This document shows, one piece after another, positions 52,275 to 64,000 of a DNA stretch of 64,000 bases (position 1 is the stretch's first letter; every line of letters begins with the position of its first letter). The stretch is from NCBI RefSeq assembly GCF_001715535.1, contig NZ_CP017015.1, forward strand, positions 62,001 through 126,000. Direction: 5' to 3'. The translations under genes were made by a program, and so were the position numbers. Origin of the DNA: Spiroplasma helicoides. Its GTDB lineage: Bacteria; Bacillota_I; Bacilli_A; Mycoplasmatales; Mycoplasmataceae. The notes under the pieces are model-generated. The model did no database searches, was not told the origin of the DNA, and worked only from the letters and a program-made list of their open reading frames with translations.

Positions 52275-52304
52275 CATAACTATAAATTAAAAAGGAGAAT
52301 GTAT

Positions 52305-53057
52305 ATGATTGAACTTAAAAATGTGTCCAGAAAAATTGGTAACTTCAAGTTAGATAATGTTAGTTTTCAGATAAAAAGAGGAGCTGTAGTAGCTTTCGTT
52401 GGAGATAATGGTGCTGGTAAAACAACTACCATTAAAGCTATTTTTGGGGAATTAAAAATTGATAGTGGAGAAATTTTGATGGATGGTCAAAATCTTTTTA
52501 GTAATAATAATTTAACCAAAATAGCATTTTTTCCTGATTCAAACAGTATACCTCTGAATATTAGAGTGCACGATTATATGCTATACATTTGTGCTGCACA
52601 CGGAATACAAACAAAAGACGCTGTAAAAATTATAGATGATGTGTATAGACTGCTAGAATTAAGACCATACAAAAATAAATATATTAAAGAGTTATCAGCT
52701 GGTTGAAAGAAAAAAGCCATCATGGCAAGTGTTTTAATTAGAAAACCTGAATACATAATATTTGATGAGCCAACAGCTAACGTGGATGTTGAATCTAAAT
52801 TATATTTCATGGGTATTTTACACTTACTAATCAATCAAGGAATAACTGTTTTGATCACCAGTCATATTATTGAGGAATTACAAGAGGTTGCAAATTATTT
52901 AGTTCTTATTAAAAAAGGAAAAATAGTTTATGCAGATAACTTTGATAACAAAAAAGAACATATTATGGATGTGTATAAACAGCATATGAAGCACCCAATT
53001 AAAGACTTAAGAATATTACATATGTTATATGGTAAGGAGAATAATAATGGAAACTAA
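52305..53057 (+). CDS. ABC transporter ATPase, pair 1
   Basis: 250-residue ABC ATPase. Walker A VGDNGAGKTT (Lys39), Walker B YIIFDEPTANVD, and H-loop ITSHIIEE are intact. The signature reads LSAGWKKK in place of LSGGQ, its Trp encoded by TGA. It is close to the ATPase at 55196 along its whole length. Start 52305 is preferred to the ATG at 52299, which has only 1 base to the SD. It overlaps the permease gene by 11 bases, so the two are made together. Substrate unknown. Confidence 0.92.
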
Positions 53058-55182
53058 TAATAAAGAATTAGATGTTAAGCTTAGTAAAAAGGCTAGAAAA
53101 TTACAAAAAGACTTTGTTTTAGCTGAAAACTTAGAACAAGTTAGGAGCCACAAAGTTAATACTTCTGTAATATATGGAATAAATCTTAAAATGGCTTTTA
53201 GAAACCCAGGAGTTTTAGTTGGTTTTTTTATACATTTAATACTAACTATGTCACTTATTGTGGTTGAAGTAAATAACGGTATTTTGACTCAAGATATAAA
53301 TAAACTAGGTTTATATAAAACTTTGATCTATGCAATGGGTACTATATCAACAGTTTTTGCTGTTTTATTACATTTGCTTTTTTTGTTTAAAAAACAAAAA
53401 AAATCAGGAATTCATGCTATTGAATTAAGAGCAGGATTGGTTTCATGAAAATCATATGCTATTAGATGTTCTGTATCTTTCACAATAAGTATGGTAGCCA
53501 CAATAATATTATTTATTTTTGGGGCTATTTATCAACAAATGACTAATCCACCAGCTGCTTTGTATGCATCATTTGTTTACTCACAAATCTTTTTCTTAGG
53601 ATTTTTATCAATCATCATTTTACTTATAATGCTACCAATTCTAATTTTTTCATCAACAATGGTTGGAACTTTATTCGCAACTGTAGTAATGTTTGTGTTT
53701 ACACTAACACCAGTTTTTTCATCATTAAAATTTAAATTTACTGGTAGTATGAAAGCTCCTGATGATTACTCTTTAAAACTAAGTTTATTGAATGAATTTT
53801 ACAATAACTTGAAAGACACAAATAATGGAAAAGAAATTTTTGGTGATGAAGCAAATTCTAATGGTGAATCTACAACATTAAAACAACTAGAAAGTAATAT
53901 ACAAAAAATGTCACAAAATAGCAGTGACACAATGGAAAATCTAAGATTAGATTTTTCAAATAATAGACTATTTGGAAATTATGGTTCACAACAATTGCCT
54001 TTAACTGAGTCTGACTTTGCTTCAGGAAAAACAAAATGAAACTTTTATAACAGTGAAACTAGACAATTTAGCACTAACTTTAATAATATAATATCAAGTA
54101 CGATGCTTTACAACTCATTGAATATAGGACAATCAAATTATGATTGATCTTATATAGTTGGAAAACCAAAAAGTATTTTTGAAAATACAACAATACAAAA
54201 AGTTTTAGATGCAATATATAATGCAGTAGACACACACAAAAATCAATTTTCGGCAGATAATAGTTCTAAACTTTCACCATTGTTTTATACACAGTACACA
54301 CAATATAACTACCAAAGTGAACCAACATCAAATGTAATGATAGAAAACTTTACTAATAAACTTATCGATTTACTTCCTGAGTATTCATCACTTATTTCTA
54401 ACATAAGAGATATTTATTCAAAATATTATCCGATATTCATTGCAAGTGAGGCAAAAATTTTAGGTAATCAAAGTCCATACTTATTAGATAATAGAACAGC
54501 CTCAAAATTTAAATCAAAAAATCATTTTTACACAAGTCAGTTAAAAACAACTGGTTATATGGAAGGTGGTTATTCATCTTCTATTGGATTAACAATCGAC
54601 TATAAAGATCTTGTAAGTGGTGGAGCATTCGAAACTGATAACCCAGATTGAGGAAAAACAGGTCTTGCAGATTTAACAGAAGAGCAACAAGCTATATATG
54701 ACAAAAACATAGAAGTTGCTGACATGTATTATAAACATCCAGAGTTAACAATTTTAAATTGATTTATTATAAATTGCTGATATGAAGTATTTACATTAAA
54801 CTTGAGTTCTCCAGATGATTTATATAATTACTATAATCAAGCAAAAGCTGGTTCAGGTTTAACAACAGATATTTCAAGACACTTCGGTGTTATGTCTTCG
54901 GGTATATTCACAAATCCTTCTATTAATGATTCGTATAATAGTTCAATGACTTCAGGAATATATCAAGGACAAACAGTATCAGTATCAAATATTCTAGACT
55001 ATGAAAAATACTTACCAACATATAACAAAAGTTATACACCTCTAAGACCTATTTTAGAGGCTGGTTCTATAAAATACAAACAAGCCTTTATTATTCCATT
55101 GGCATTTGCAATTTACTTGTTGATAGCGGCACCACTATCATATCTAGGTTATCTAGCCTATAACAAAAAAATAAAAGTTTAA
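53047..55182 (+). CDS. ABC transporter permease with large extracellular domain, pair 1
   Basis: 711 residues: a cytoplasmic start of about 45, four to six spans up to about residue 225, then a predicted extracellular region of about 430 residues, and one last span (about 680-705) before a short Lys-rich end. A re-entrant segment HAIELRAGLVSWKSYAIR recurs in the second permease as QIEARAGVALIKSYLVR. The outside part is rich in Ser, Asn, Tyr and is hydrophilic, like FtsX/MacB-type mechanotransmitters or surface antigens. No known domain recognised. Several TGA codons encode Trp. Confidence 0.8.
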
Positions 55183-55195
55183 GGAGAATTACAAA

Positions 55196-55960
55196 ATGAT
55201 AGAATTAAAAAAAGTTTCAAGAGACTTAGGTGGTTTTTCTTTAAATCAAGTGAGTTTCACAATTAAAAAAGGTGCTGTCGTAGCTTTTGTTGGAGATAAC
55301 GGTGCTGGTAAAACCACAACAATTAAGGCTATGTTTGGAGAGTTAAGAATTGATAAAGGTGAAATATTAATGGATGGTGAAAGTCTATTTAAAAACGAAA
55401 ACTTACAAAGAGTAGCATTTTTCCCAGACTCAAATAACGTCCCAATGGATATGACTTTGAAAGATTATGTGAATTATATTTGTGCTGTAAATGGTATGAC
55501 AAAGAAACAAACAAAAGAGAGATCTCATGCTGTCTACAAAATGCTTGGTTTAGAACAATATGTTCACAAAAAAATGGGTAACTTGTCAGCTGGTTGAAAA
55601 AAAAGAGCAATCATGTCTAGTGTTCTTGTGAGATCTCCAGAATTCATTGTATTTGATGAACCAACCGCCAACGTAGACGTAGAAGCAAAAATCTCATTTA
55701 TGAATATTTTGCACGAGCTTTCTAATATTGGTGTAACAATTTTAATTACAAGTCATATTTTAGAAGAACTTCAAGAAGTTGCAAACTACTTGATACTTAT
55801 TAAAAATGGAGAAATAGTTTACGAAAAAGATTTTGACAATAAAACTGAAAGTATAGCTGAAATTTACAAAAAAACAATGGCTGAAAAAACAGATAACATT
55901 AAACTTCTAAAAAATATTTATGAAAAAAATGAATTTGGGGGACGACGCAATGGAAAATAA
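55196..55960 (+). CDS. ABC transporter ATPase, pair 2
   Basis: 254 residues, paralogue of the ATPase at 52305: identical Walker A neighbourhood GDNGAGKTTTIKA, Walker B FIVFDEPTANVDVE, and again the variant signature LSAGWKKR with a TGA-encoded Trp. SD AAGGAGAATT lies 13 bases after the preceding permease stop. The last 11 bases overlap the second permease gene. This repeats the ATPase-permease order of pair 1, so the block arose by tandem duplication and divergence. Confidence 0.92.
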
Positions 55961-58532
55961 TCAAAGTTTTAACGAGATAAACAATACTATTGATAGTGTC
56001 GTTACTAAAAATAAAAAGCCAAAGAAAAAAATTTCATTCAAGTTGCCAGAAGTTAATGGAGTTTGATTATTGTTTTTCTTAAATATTAGAAAAACATTTG
56101 CCTTAAAATCAGGTATTGGTACAGGATTAACATTTTTGATTATTGCATTAATAATTACAGGTATTGGAGTCTCAATGTCTACAGGATTTAGTTTTGACTA
56201 TTCTACTTCAACAATCCCAACAAGTATGGGATATATATTTGTACTATTTTTCTTCATAGTTTTTGCATCTATTTTAATTATAAGTTTGTTTAAAGTGCCT
56301 ATTCTTGAAGGAATACAACAAATTGAGGCAAGAGCAGGAGTGGCTTTAATAAAGTCATATTTGGTAAGAATCTTTACATATGTGATTGTTACATACTCAT
56401 ATATTTTAGTATTTTTGATAATAAGTTTGATTATTGGATCATCTTATCAAAATCAATCAATGACATTCGAAAGTATTGTTATAAGTCCACCTCTTTTCTT
56501 AATGATGTTTAGTTTGATTTGATTCCCAGTAATGTCATTAATTGCTCTAATTTCATCAGTGGCTATGGGGACATTTGCTAATATATTTTTAGGATTTGTT
56601 GTGGCTTTATCACCATTAATTAGTGTGGTAATGAATTCTGTTTCTTCTGAATCACCAGAAAAATTAAGACAACAAAAAATTGTTATTAATAAAAACGCTA
56701 AACTTATTTTTGCCAATGATTTTTATAAAAAATTTGCCAACGATGAAAGTATTAAAAAGATTTTTGAAGACACTAATATTTTACAAACAATCAATAACAA
56801 CGCAAAAGTAATGCACTTTAAAAATCTTTCACTTGATCTTTTTGATACAAATCTTGTTGCAGAAGGAAAAACTAACTCAAGAAACAATAGTGGAAACAGC
56901 GGAAAACCTAGTTATGATAACGGTTCAAGCTCATCAAGCAGTAATTATCAACCAATTATGTCAGCGATATTTCGGGGTTTTGTTGGGGGACAATTTAACT
57001 TAGATTTAGATACTTTGTATAGCGATTATGTATCTACAATAGATAAATTAAATCAAGAAGTTATTGATTCTAGCAACTCAAGTGAAGGAAATCAAAAACC
57101 TCCTTACAATGGAGGTTATCCACCATACGAAGATTATCAAATCAATAAAAAAGATCAACAAAAATTAATTTTAAACAGTAATATAGAATTACCAAAAATT
57201 GAAACCAAAAATATTTTTAGTGGTTTAGAAATAAATAACATTTTACAAAAAATGTTTGATAAAGTTAGAGAATCTTATTTCACAGATAATGAGGCACCAA
57301 TCTCTTATCCTAATTTTGATGGGGGAGTATTGGTTGGTCAAAGTATTAGTAGTGGTGATTCATCAACTATTACTAATTTAGAAATATCTGGAATGGTTAA
57401 ATGACTTAAAAAAGAGTTTCCTGAATATAAAAATCTATTAGATTACATTCAATGACAGTACGAAAATTACAATGAAATTTTATTCTCAAGAGATAAAACA
57501 AGAAGCTCTGCATTTAATTCAACTAATAACCTAAAATCAGTTTTTAGAAGTTTGCCTGATAAAACAAATATTTATACTTTGGGTAGTTCGAGTGTTGACA
57601 CTAATGAAAAAATATCTTCAGTAATGGCAACTTATAAAAGATATCCAGAACTTATGATGATAAATTCATTAATAACACAAAACTGAATGAGTGTTATGAG
57701 TTATTCAGCAGATGAATTGTTTAGTTATATTGGTTCAAATAATTTAAGATATACAGAAGCTTTAAAATCATATGACACTTTGGAAAAACAAGGAGTTCAA
57801 TCAACTATTATTAACCTATTAAATCATTTTGGTTTAATGTTCACAGGATTAGTTGGAAGTGATGCTGCCAAAGATCTATGGTACCAAGATAGAGATTTAT
57901 TGTTTAGCAGGGGTATGACAACAAATGTTTCAAACATTAAACAATTAGGAGCTTATTCTGTAGTAAACAGTTCATCTGAATTGTTAAATTCTAGATACGG
58001 TAATGGTGCTGGCACATCAAGTAATACTGAAAAATACAATATAGCAGATATGAAAAATTATAGTATACATGATAACAAAGTTTATCTAGATCTATCAGAT
58101 AGTTTAGATCCAAGTACTTCAGGACAAGAATTAACTTTACCTATGGTAATGTCTGATATACAATCATTGTTCCCATTCAGTTTTTCAAAAGGTAACATAA
58201 CTTCTCTTGGATTAGAATTGAAAAAAGAAGGTCAAGAATACTATTTACAACCAATTGATAAAATTAATTATTGAAAGTATTCACCAAATAGTGATAGTTC
58301 TTCATCAAGTAGGGCTTCAAGTTCAGAAGAACAGTCAAGTACATTCAAGGCTTACCTTTCTTTCACAAATAAAGGTAATAATGATAAAGTAGTAGAACCA
58401 ATATTCAAAAAAACGCCTTTAGAACAAGGTCTTGGTTTCTCAGTAATTGGAGCAGCTTTCACATATTTAGCACTTTCATTAGCAATTACAGCACTACTAT
58501 TCTTGTTGTATAGAAGTAAATCAAGATTCTAA
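55950..58532 (+). CDS. ABC transporter permease with large extracellular domain, pair 2
   Basis: 860 residues. N-terminal polar part with Lys-rich stretch, spans at about 44-66 and 90-112, the shared GIQQIEARAGVALIKSYLVR segment, two or three more spans to about 230, then about 600 residues predicted outside and a last span near 830-850. The outside region has low-complexity linkers: an Ser/Asn-rich stretch near 330 and a Pro/Gly/Tyr-rich stretch (NQKPPYNGGYPPY) near 385-395. It is paralogous to the permease of pair 1 but its exterior is far diverged. SD GGGGGAC. Confidence 0.8.
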
Positions 58533-60386: not shown

Positions 60387-61934
60387 ATGAAAAAGCTAAT
60401 TGGATTTTTATCATCATTATTAATTACAGCTCAATCAAGTGCAATTGTAGCATCTTGTGGTTGTCAAACTAAGACAACAAGCGAAGAAGATGCAAATAAA
60501 AACCCTAATTTAGATACTTTCAAAATTGACGATCAATATATTTATGAAAATTCTGGAAAAATAATAGTTGCCAGAATTCCAGAAGCTATAAAAGATGCTG
60601 AAATCAAAGTAACTGATTATGATAAAAATAACTTATATGTTCACACATCAATTGACAAAGATAGTGAACAGTTAGGTTATTTTGAGATACGTATTTTAGC
60701 CAAAAAAGTTAGTGAAAGCACTTTAAAAGTTAAGTATGGTGAATCAGAAACAACCTTTAAGGTTAATGTAGTAGATTCAAAACACGATGATCCCAAAGTA
60801 GAACTTGAAAAAGAACAAAAAATAGCTGTAAACCAAACAGCACCAATAAAAGCAGTTATTTTGAATCCGGTAAAAGATGCAAAATTTAGCATCGATTCTA
60901 TTGACAGATCAGTTGCTCAAGTAATCAATACAACCGGAGTTGACAGCGAAGGTAAGGGACTAATTGAATTTAATATAAAAGGTCTTAGAGAAGGTGAAAC
61001 AAGAGTTCTTGTTAACTATGGTAATGCTCAAGGTGTTTTAATTTTAAAGGTTGTAAAACAATCCGAATCAAAAGTACCATTGATACATACATATGATGTT
61101 GACATGCAAAAAAATCAAACTATAGATAGGGACTTTTTGGTAGAAAATGCTGTAAAGGGTTCAAAAATCTCAATGGTTTCAAGCAAAAACGATGTAAAAG
61201 TTACTTTAAAAAATACAATGGATGATTCAGGTGATGGAGTTATTTTATTTGATGTAACATCTCCTGATAAAGTTATAGATGACTGTGAGATAACTGTTAT
61301 ATATGGTGAAAGTGTTGGCAAATTTAAAGTAAATGTTTTAGATGCACCAAAATTTACAACATCACCTAAATCACCAATAACAATAAATGAAGGAATGCAT
61401 TCAAATAACAATGAGTTTAAAGTAGAAAATCATTATCAATATGCTCCAATTAAAGTAGAAGTTAGTGATAATGACAAAAAATACATTGACGCATTTTCAA
61501 TGTCAGATTATGATATGGAAAATACTGGAACTTTTATCCTTGTTGTTTATGGCTTGGAACCAACATCATCTGAGGGATGTATAGTAAATGTTTCTTATGG
61601 TGACACTTCAATAAAAATAAAAGTAATTGTTAATAAAGTTGAAAAACCTGCACCATCAATTTTTGGTCTTAGTGAAGATAGTGTTTACGAACTTAAAACA
61701 TCACAAGGATTAGCTGTTTTGTCTTATATAAATAACCCTATATCAGAAGGAATTTTAACAACTACATTTGAAAATAATGATAATTTAGATGTTGAAATAA
61801 CAGGTCACAAAGGTAGTGATCACTACAACATATTCTTGATTTCAGGAAGCAAACCTTCTGAAGAACAAGAAGTTACATTTCAATATTCTGGAGCAAAAGA
61901 TGTTAAAATAAAAGTTAAAGTAACAAGTAGATAA
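60387..61934 (+). CDS. Lipoprotein with tandem Ig-like repeats
   Basis: 515 residues: signal peptide and lipobox IVASC-G (lipidated Cys24), then a Lys/Glu/Asp-rich linker and about five tandem units of 85-95 residues. Each ends with a short strand pattern V-x-Y-G...K-x-K-V-x-V (LKVKYGESETTFKVNVV; VLVNYGNAQGVLILKVV; ITVIYGESVGKFKVNVL; VNVSYGDTSIKIKVIVN; VTFQYSGAKDVKIKVKV), like BIG/cadherin-type modules. It is surface-exposed by inference. No TGA or Trp codon seen in frame. Placed between ptsI and crr, an odd site. SD AAGGAGGA. A host-contact or adhesion role is possible but unproven. Confidence 0.85.
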   Translation: MKKLIGFLSSLLITAQSSAIVASCGCQTKTTSEEDANKNPNLDTFKIDDQYIYENSGKIIVARIPEAIKDAEIKVTDYDKNNLYVHTSIDKDSEQLGYFEIRILAKKVSESTLKVKYGESETTFKVNVVDSKHDDPKVELEKEQKIAVNQTAPIKAVILNPVKDAKFSIDSIDRSVAQVINTTGVDSEGKGLIEFNIKGLREGETRVLVNYGNAQGVLILKVVKQSESKVPLIHTYDVDMQKNQTIDRDFLVENAVKGSKISMVSSKNDVKVTLKNTMDDSGDGVILFDVTSPDKVIDDCEITVIYGESVGKFKVNVLDAPKFTTSPKSPITINEGMHSNNNEFKVENHYQYAPIKVEVSDNDKKYIDAFSMSDYDMENTGTFILVVYGLEPTSSEGCIVNVSYGDTSIKIKVIVNKVEKPAPSIFGLSEDSVYELKTSQGLAVLSYINNPISEGILTTTFENNDNLDVEITGHKGSDHYNIFLISGSKPSEEQEVTFQYSGAKDVKIKVKVTSR

Positions 61935-62012: not shown

Positions 62013-62489
62013 ATGAGATTATTCACAAAGAAAAAAAATTTAGAAATATTTGCACCTGTAGATGGTGAAATAATAGATATTCACACTGTTCAAGATGAAG
62101 TGTTTGCAGAAGGTATGCTAGGAGAAGGTTTAGCTTTTGTTCCAGATAACGGTGAATTTGTTGCACCAGTTGATGGAAAACTTGTTACTGTTTTTCCAAC
62201 AGGTCACGCATACGGGATCAAAAATAAAAACGGCGTAGAAATTTTATTACATATTGGTTTAGATACTGTTTCACTAGAAGGTGAAGGGTTCGATGTAAAA
62301 GTTAAACAAGATCAAGAAGTTTCTGTAGGAGACTTACTTGTTATAGCTGATTTAGAATCGATTGCTAAAAAAGTTCCATCAACTCAAACACCATTAATTT
62401 TTGTACCTGAATCAATGAATGGTAAGTCATTGGAAATTGTTGCTAAAGGAAAAGTTAAAAAAGGTGACTTAATAGTTATTATTAAATAA
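62013..62489 (+). CDS. crr: PTS EIIA(Glc)-type protein
   Basis: Stand-alone EIIA of the glucose family, 158 residues. PVDGEIIDI, His65 in PTGHAYGI and His80 in LLHIGLDTVSLEGEGF are the two active-site His. It can phosphorylate EIIB domains that lack EIIA, including the sucrose EIIBC at 7799. SD GAAAGGAAC. No TGA codons. It is the third general PTS gene of the window, with ptsI 2 kb upstream. Confidence 0.96.
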   Translation: MRLFTKKKNLEIFAPVDGEIIDIHTVQDEVFAEGMLGEGLAFVPDNGEFVAPVDGKLVTVFPTGHAYGIKNKNGVEILLHIGLDTVSLEGEGFDVKVKQDQEVSVGDLLVIADLESIAKKVPSTQTPLIFVPESMNGKSLEIVAKGKVKKGDLIVIIK

Positions 62490-62566: not shown

Positions 62567-63820
62567 GTGAATACATTGGAAACAAAAGATTACTATGAGA
62601 TTTTAAAATTAAAAAAATCTTGTAATTCAAAACAAATTAAGACTTCTTTTATAAAATTAGCTAAAAAACATTATCCTCAAAATAATAAAGAAAAAAAACT
62701 AGAATTAAGTTTTGTTGAAATAGCTGAGGCATATGAAATTTTAATAGATAAAGAAAAAAGACATATTTATGATTCATATGGATTAAAAGGTTTGTACGGA
62801 GAAGGTTTTGAGAATTATAAAACATTATCATTTAACGAGGCAATTTCTATTTTAAAAGGTTTGACAGATAACTCATCTCAAAAGAGTTTTTTAGATTTTC
62901 AAAATAAATATTATGAAACATCTGAATCATTTAATTTTAATGGTTTGAACTGAAAAGTAGATGGAATCATATTTGTTACTGCCGGCTTATTTGTACCTTT
63001 ATTTTTCTCAATTATAGCAGTAACTCTTTTTGGTCTAAAAACTAACCCATCCGCTCAAGTTGTAATACAGTTTGTTCAGATTATTTCGGTTATGCTTGGA
63101 TTTATTGTCTTATTCCAAAAACATAGATCTATTTATTTGAAACAAGGTTATGCCTGAGAATTTTTTTATTTTGTATTACCAATTGTTTTCATTTTGATAG
63201 CCTCTTTGTTATCTGCTCTTGAAAATAATATCAAAGTAATGATGCTAGAACTAATTCCTAAATTAATTTTGGCAATATTTATAATAGTTTATGACAAAAG
63301 ACTAGTTAAAAAAATTAAAGAAACATTCAAAAATCATCTAGGTTCACTAGTTGTTACTGTTATAATTGGAACTATTGTTATGGTTGGTGTAAGTCTATTT
63401 TTGACCGAGATTGTGGAAACTAGATTATTCAAACTTGGTGATTCTAATAATCAAAATGCATTAATTGGAGTATTAAATGATCCAAATGCTGCTAAATCTA
63501 CAAAAATAGGTTATGCTATACTTTTAATGGCTTATGCTGTTATTGTCGCTCCTTTTGTAGAAGAAGTTGTTTTTAGATATTGCTGATTTTTAAATTCTTC
63601 AAATAAATGATTTGGACTTATAACTAGTGCTATTGTATTTGGTTTTATCCACTACGGAATAACGGGTGATTATGAGCATTTACTATCATATACATGAGGT
63701 GGGGCGGTTTTAGGTGGAGTATTTGTTTTTACAAAAGGAAATACAACACACACCTGGTTAATGCACTTTTTAAATAATTTATATAGTGCTATAACAATTT
63801 TTGCTTTTGCAAGCTGATAG
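62567..63820 (+). CDS. Degenerate J-domain fused to CPBP intramembrane protease
   Basis: 417 residues in one frame read through six TGA codons. Residues 7-75 follow the DnaJ J-domain (DYYEILKLKKSCNSKQIKTSFIKLAKKHYPQ, then LSFVEIAEAYEILIDKEKRHIYDSYG), but the HPD motif reads YPQ (residues 36-38). Several spans follow from about residue 130. The C-terminal part has CPBP motifs: EEVVFR (Glu332, Glu333, Arg337), FGFIH (His362) and HFLNN (His400, Asn403). All key CPBP residues are kept, so proteolysis is plausible, while Hsp70 stimulation is not. GTG start has GGAG 3 bases before; TTG at 62576 is an alternative. Confidence 0.85.
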
Positions 63821-63827
63821 GAGAAAC

Positions 63828-64000
63828 ATGACATTATTTGAAATTAACAAAAATGACGAAAATCAAACAATATTTAATTATATTAAAAAAAATTTTAAAA
63901 ATACAAGCTTATCAATAATATATAAATGGTTTAGAACTGGAAAAGTAAAATTAAACGATAAAAAAGTTAAAGATCTTAAAACAATTTTAAATAATGGAGA
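63828..64000 (+). CDS. RluA-family pseudouridine synthase, 5' part only
   Basis: Cut by the right edge after 57 codons. The N-terminus (LFEINKNDENQTIFNYIKKNFK, then SIIYKWFRTGKVKLNDKKV) matches the S4 RNA-binding domain that opens RluC/RluD-type synthases. The catalytic Asp domain lies beyond the window, so the exact target uridine cannot be told. AGGAGAAAC is the SD, 7 bases after the previous stop. Confidence 0.8.
   Translation, partial: MTLFEINKNDENQTIFNYIKKNFKNTSLSIIYKWFRTGKVKLNDKKVKDLKTILNNG

Follow-up and report, generated by a model that had tools for sequence, protein, structure and literature searches.

The window analysed here is a 64,000-nucleotide stretch of the Spiroplasma helicoides genome. 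Near its 3′ end, a single open frame under genetic code 4 encodes a J domain followed by a membrane protein of the CPBP family (Table 1). The frame comprises 417 codons from a GTG, and its six TGA codons are read as tryptophan. An earlier note, made from the letters alone, had described one uninterrupted frame joining the two parts into a 417-residue protein. The frame and both Pfam domains are confirmed, and a chance origin is excluded because two relatives carry the same two-domain frame. The start codon is more likely TTG 62576 than the GTG 62567 of that note, giving a protein of 414 residues. The GGAG sequence ends only 2 nt before the GTG but 11 nt before the TTG. The ATG codons at which the two homologues begin (MKNKQDYY and MINKKDYY) also align with this TTG. 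Residue numbers are counted from GTG 62567.

Table 1. Features of the fusion gene and its immediate neighbours in the window.
Feature	Position	Strand	Evidence or comment
crr (PTS EIIA), upstream neighbour	62013..62489	+	Pfam PTS_EIIA_1, 1.1e-46
J-CPBP fusion gene (code 4)	62567..63820	+	Probable start TTG 62576; alternative GTG 62567
J domain, residues 8–69	62588..62773	+	Pfam DnaJ, AlphaFold helices, PDB match 5nro_B
YPQ replacing HPD, residues 36–38 (Y36-P37-Q38)	62672..62680	+	Sequence, alignment
Linker with extra helix, residues 70–107, specific to fused clade	62774..62887	+	Alignment with unfused orthologues; AlphaFold helix 89–100
Ancestral CPBP N-terminus (FxxFQxKYY...F-F...G motif), common to J-less genus members	62888..62950	+	Alignment
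CPBP membrane domain, residues 129–414, multiple transmembrane helices	62951..63808	+	Pfam Rce1-like, AlphaFold, VIA
Catalytic motif EExxxR (EEVVFR), residues 332–337	63560..63577	+	E, E and R in 60/60 orthologues
Catalytic motif FxxxH (F358..H362), residues 358–362	63638..63652	+	F and H in 60/60 orthologues
Catalytic motif HxxxN (H400..N404), residues 400–404	63764..63778	+	H and N in 60/60 orthologues
RluA-family pseudouridine synthase, downstream neighbour, runs off the window	63828..64000	+	NCBIfam RluC/rluA_subfam

The N-terminal part adopts a predicted J fold. The Pfam DnaJ profile matches residues 8–69 with an E value of 2.2e-17 and 63 bits, against a cut-off of 27.8. The full chain was modelled by AlphaFold2 from an alignment of the window and locus proteins, with a mean pLDDT of 94.3 and a pTM of 0.84. 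In this model, the J helices lie at residues 9–12, 21–35, 43–60 and 62–77, with block pLDDT values of about 81–97. Residues 6–67 superpose on the J domain of DnaK-bound DnaJ (5nro_B) with a Z score of 9.0 and an rmsd of 1.1 Å over 62 residues. Pfam, AlphaFold and the 5nro_B match thus agree on helices I–IV with the J core. The earlier note had claimed this fold and would have given it up had a structure prediction lacked it in residues 1–75; the prediction contains it.

The membrane part shares the EExxxR, FxxxH and HxxxN motifs and the fold of the CPBP, or type II CAAX protease, family (PF02517), which includes Rce1, the myxosortase MrtX and MroQ. What sets the fusion protein apart from these members is the J domain at its N-terminus, together with additional transmembrane helices in the N-terminal part. 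The Pfam Rce1-like profile matches residues 317–405 (E 7.9e-12, 45.7 bits, curated cut-off 22.4). The three motifs are intact, as first read from the sequence, and their residues E332, E333, R337, F358, H362, H400 and N404 are invariant in all 60 orthologues of the host's family. Modelled alone, the membrane part reaches a pLDDT of 93.7 and a pTM of 0.92. Foldseek by itself returned no significant match for it. The top three matches by VIA-align are SpdC (Z 8.0), archaeal Rce1 (4cad; Z 7.6 over 183 residues) and APH-1 (Z 4.3), of which SpdC and Rce1 are clear of a background of about 4. All three are known members of the CPBP fold, in agreement with the fold originally proposed. The membrane part is most likely a glutamic intramembrane protease, and we infer that it is proteolytically active.

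A CPBP protein may also serve as a non-proteolytic scaffold. Such a role would be compatible with SpdC being the best structural match, tied with Rce1, and with the presence of lipoprotein genes nearby, as some CPBP proteins serve lipoprotein tailoring (PMC7387801), among them S. aureus LnsB in lipoprotein N-acylation. However, LnsB and SpdC lack the catalytic residues (PMC7387801), all of which are kept in 60/60 orthologues here. A scaffold of the LnsB or SpdC kind is accordingly improbable, and LnsB-like N-acylation is disfavoured.

Hydropathy and loop charges place the N-terminus in the cytosol, on the same side as the basic loops 186–196 and 243–257, so the J part is probably cytosolic. 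In known members, access to an Rce1-type active site is from the cytosol. The J part would then lie on the side expected to hold the opening of such a site.

The CPBP protein is present in all 60 family genomes searched, with PF02517 found exactly once per genome. The single copy and the invariant catalytic residues suggest a conserved, probably active enzyme with a general, housekeeping role. In the loci whose neighbours were read, the gene is flanked, with few exceptions, by crr or genes of the ptsI region on one side and by an RluA-type pseudouridine synthase on the other. crr precedes it in most loci of the same genus, and the synthase is the next gene in nearly all. A terminator scan gave no match, although an A/T-rich hairpin with a T-run is visible by eye after crr. 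Across the order, PF02517 occurs in 102 of 320 genomes. Its distribution outside the host's family is patchy (42/260), compared with 60/60 within it, and it occurs in no listed genome of one large family of the order (f7), a clear split between presence and absence.

CPBP proteins include bacteriocin-immunity members, and the earlier note had pointed to a part in bacterial immunity. A role in immunity or in bacteriocin self-protection, of the Abi type, would fit this general property of the family. It is at odds with the single copy in 60/60 genomes and the conserved, mostly syntenic crr-CPBP-rluA setting. In addition, no bacteriocin or defence genes were noticed nearby, and no defence-type model in PADLOC matched the fusion gene. 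On copy number, neighbourhood and PADLOC, the immunity role is rejected as highly improbable.

The J domain is found on the CPBP protein in only three of the 60 genomes, that of the window and two others (G036 and G044), a recurrence in related genomes that the earlier note had named as support for its claim. The three proteins carry about 100 extra N-terminal residues. The other 57 genomes encode one-to-one orthologues that mostly share the neighbourhood and have the same catalytic residues, but lack a J domain and have only 21–63 residues before the first conserved motif. When a tree is built from the membrane part alone, the fused proteins form one clade (99/99), recovered in 100% of bootstrap trees, and G036 and G044 are sisters (100/97). 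This monophyly among 60 proteins points to a single fusion event, and the simplest history is one lineage-specific gain in the ancestor of the three species.

The junction lies near residues 100–108. From F108 onward, at the FxxFQxKYY motif, the protein aligns with the unfused orthologues of the genus. The start codon lies 80–86 nt from crr in the fused loci and about 70 nt from it in the unfused ones. This spacing has changed little, suggesting that the J domain was added in frame just behind the start codon. The earlier note would have counted relatives with the two parts in separate genes against its claim. Half of this holds: the CPBP gene stands alone in 57/60 genomes, but no stand-alone J gene was seen beside an unfused CPBP gene, and among the matches listed for the genomes examined the J genes lie tens of kilobases away. 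The fusion therefore appears to be a derived addition and not an ancient composite system.

Wider searches returned no further example. With a profile of the three proteins, none of the matches listed from a class-wide sample of 395 genomes covers both parts outside the clade. Plasmid and phage collections contain no place covering 80% of the query, and the matches listed there are to the J half only. Two scans of a genome-contig collection, from which near relatives may be absent, yielded only a single DnaJ of Lachnospiraceae; nothing related to the CPBP part was among the matches. In a tree of J domains, the fused J parts group with DnaJ and not with the small membrane J proteins (83/83), while their own monophyly reaches 55/52; two of the three are long-branched, and so short a tree does not establish that they derive from the dnaJ of the genus itself.

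The placement of the J domain on DnaK is set in DnaJ by residues R22, K26 and R27, and replacement of H or D in the HPD motif abolishes stimulation of the ATPase (PMC8215388). The HPD site reads YPQ in the window protein, NVN in G044 and HPD in G036. Because G036 and G044 are sisters, HPD must have been lost twice independently. At the helix-II sites 22, 26 and 27, the window protein has K22, I26 and K27, G036 has I22, E26 and S27, and G044 has K22, K26 and D27. These correspond to the changes R26I in the window protein, K22I, R26E and K27S in G036, and K27D in G044. The whole DnaK interface is intact in none of the three, and G036 lacks the basic helix-II residues despite its HPD. With each genome's own DnaJ as reference, the J-core positions retain 37 of 48 cells and the DnaK-interface positions 12 of 27 (Fisher p 0.005; this figure is rough, as cells are not independent and the sites were chosen by the analyst). 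In the same genomes, the stand-alone small J proteins with a membrane anchor still have HPD, K22 and R26, indicating that the erosion is specific to the fused copies. Judging from these comparisons, the three species share the J fold but differ in how the surface that contacts DnaK has eroded.

The window protein, with YPQ and R26I, thus falls outside the canonical DnaK co-chaperones of classes A–C, which combine HPD with a basic helix-II surface. The protein and its G044 counterpart can be assigned to the J-like, or type IV, proteins, defined by a J fold with a corrupted HPD; G036 does not belong there. The loss of HPD described in the earlier note is therefore a property of the window protein and not of the architecture. 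Its proposal of DnaK independence is plausible, as each fused J lacks part of the DnaK interface, with the reservation that G036 keeps HPD itself.

The J domain could instead recruit DnaK together with a misfolded client to the protease, in membrane quality control of the kind expected of a class C J protein tethered to the membrane. HPD must have been present in the ancestor, and G036, which retains it, might recruit DnaK. The host genome contains dnaJ as well as a dnaK recognised by its sequence signature, and several other J proteins of the genus are anchored in the membrane. DnaK-coupled quality control is nonetheless quite unlikely, given that two of the three fused proteins have lost HPD independently and that the third is without the basic helix-II patch.

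The small membrane-anchored J proteins of the genus begin with a transmembrane segment and end in a J domain whose HPD is intact. Five of them are about 120–145 aa long (L077, L078, L080, L081 and L082) and two about 288 aa (L084 and L085). J-domain matches number 4–6 per genome in the five genomes searched.

The J domain may also be a passenger: a 5′ fragment of dnaJ captured neutrally and in frame at a weakly constrained N-terminus and now decaying, with the protease working as in the 57 unfused species. The N-termini of the orthologues vary freely in length and sequence, and their shortness in the unfused proteins indicates weak constraint there, so that the J domain may matter little. The J parts are 40–46% identical, compared with 62–71% for the CPBP core, and the DnaK interface is eroding. 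However, all three lineages still have the frame and the J fold, although their membrane cores are just 62–71% identical. All three J parts score above the Pfam gathering threshold, and the linker is conserved in parts. The J-core positions are kept, including the invariant residues DYY, L, I, A, F, A, L, D and YD. These features suggest selection on the J fold, which we infer rather than measure, since there are only three sequences and two are long-branched in the J tree. A passenger is on balance unlikely, though it deserves serious consideration.

The reading we favour, with a probability of roughly one half, is that a J-like module tethered to a membrane protease serves in docking or regulation and has ceased to depend on DnaK. 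A single, probably housekeeping CPBP-type glutamic intramembrane endopeptidase would have gained a dnaJ-type J domain once, in frame, after its start codon. As a DnaK-independent, type IV module, this domain could dock a cytosolic partner, or a cytosolic segment of a membrane substrate, at the protease. Alternatively, its part in the same arrangement may be regulatory rather than docking. A more far-reaching version, which we regard as speculative, is that the J domain now acts, independently of DnaK, as the substrate receptor or gate of an intramembrane glutamic protease. This would be the first such fusion, with HPD, YPQ and NVN as stages of conversion from co-chaperone to adaptor.

Proteins with a J fold and a corrupted HPD or helix-II DnaK surface include E. 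coli DjlB, human DNAJB13 and Pam16/Tim16 (PMC10349383). The fused proteins resemble them in the corrupted DnaK surface but are joined to an intramembrane protease, and the HPD of the fused clade ranges from intact to lost. Closer in layout is CJD1 of Arabidopsis chloroplasts, in which an HPD-less J-like domain at the N-terminus is followed by the transmembrane helices of a multi-pass protein. CJD1 fails to substitute for DnaJ, and its binding partner is another J-like protein (PMC3196505). It is thus an earlier example of a membrane protein whose J-like domain lacks HPD and whose partner is not Hsp70. Its membrane part is not described as CPBP, and its origin differs from that of the fusion protein.

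To our knowledge, most bacterial CPBP proteases have no known substrates. Unlike Rce1 and the myxosortases, the fusion protein has no known CAAX or MYXO-CTERM substrate. Myxosortase is proposed to cleave next to a lipid-modified cysteine, as Rce1 does (PMC11980579). As CPBP relatives cleave beside such cysteines, lipoproteins would be a natural guess for the substrate of the J-CPBP protease.

The fusion joins two modules, J and CPBP, that were not found joined in the literature searched, which extended to sources other than subscription journals. The three species form a small natural series of one fused J domain, with the DnaK surface partly intact, changed or gone. The tethered adaptor domain also offers a handle for finding partners of a protease that every family member keeps.

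The surroundings of the locus display two further features. Lipoprotein genes with an MKKL...C signal lie directly upstream of crr in all three fusion genomes (60387–61934 in the window, 5068–7256 in L062 and 5335–7588 in L063) and in none of the three unfused loci that have crr and were read at length (G033, G030 and G028). Two of these genes are common to G036 and G044, and the one in the window is weakly similar only. Farther upstream, positions 52299–58532 contain two tandem ABC transporter pairs with similar ATP-binding subunits (52299–53057 and 55196–55960). Each ATP-binding subunit is followed by a very large permease-like protein (717 and 870 aa) whose hydrophobic ends are separated by a long region.
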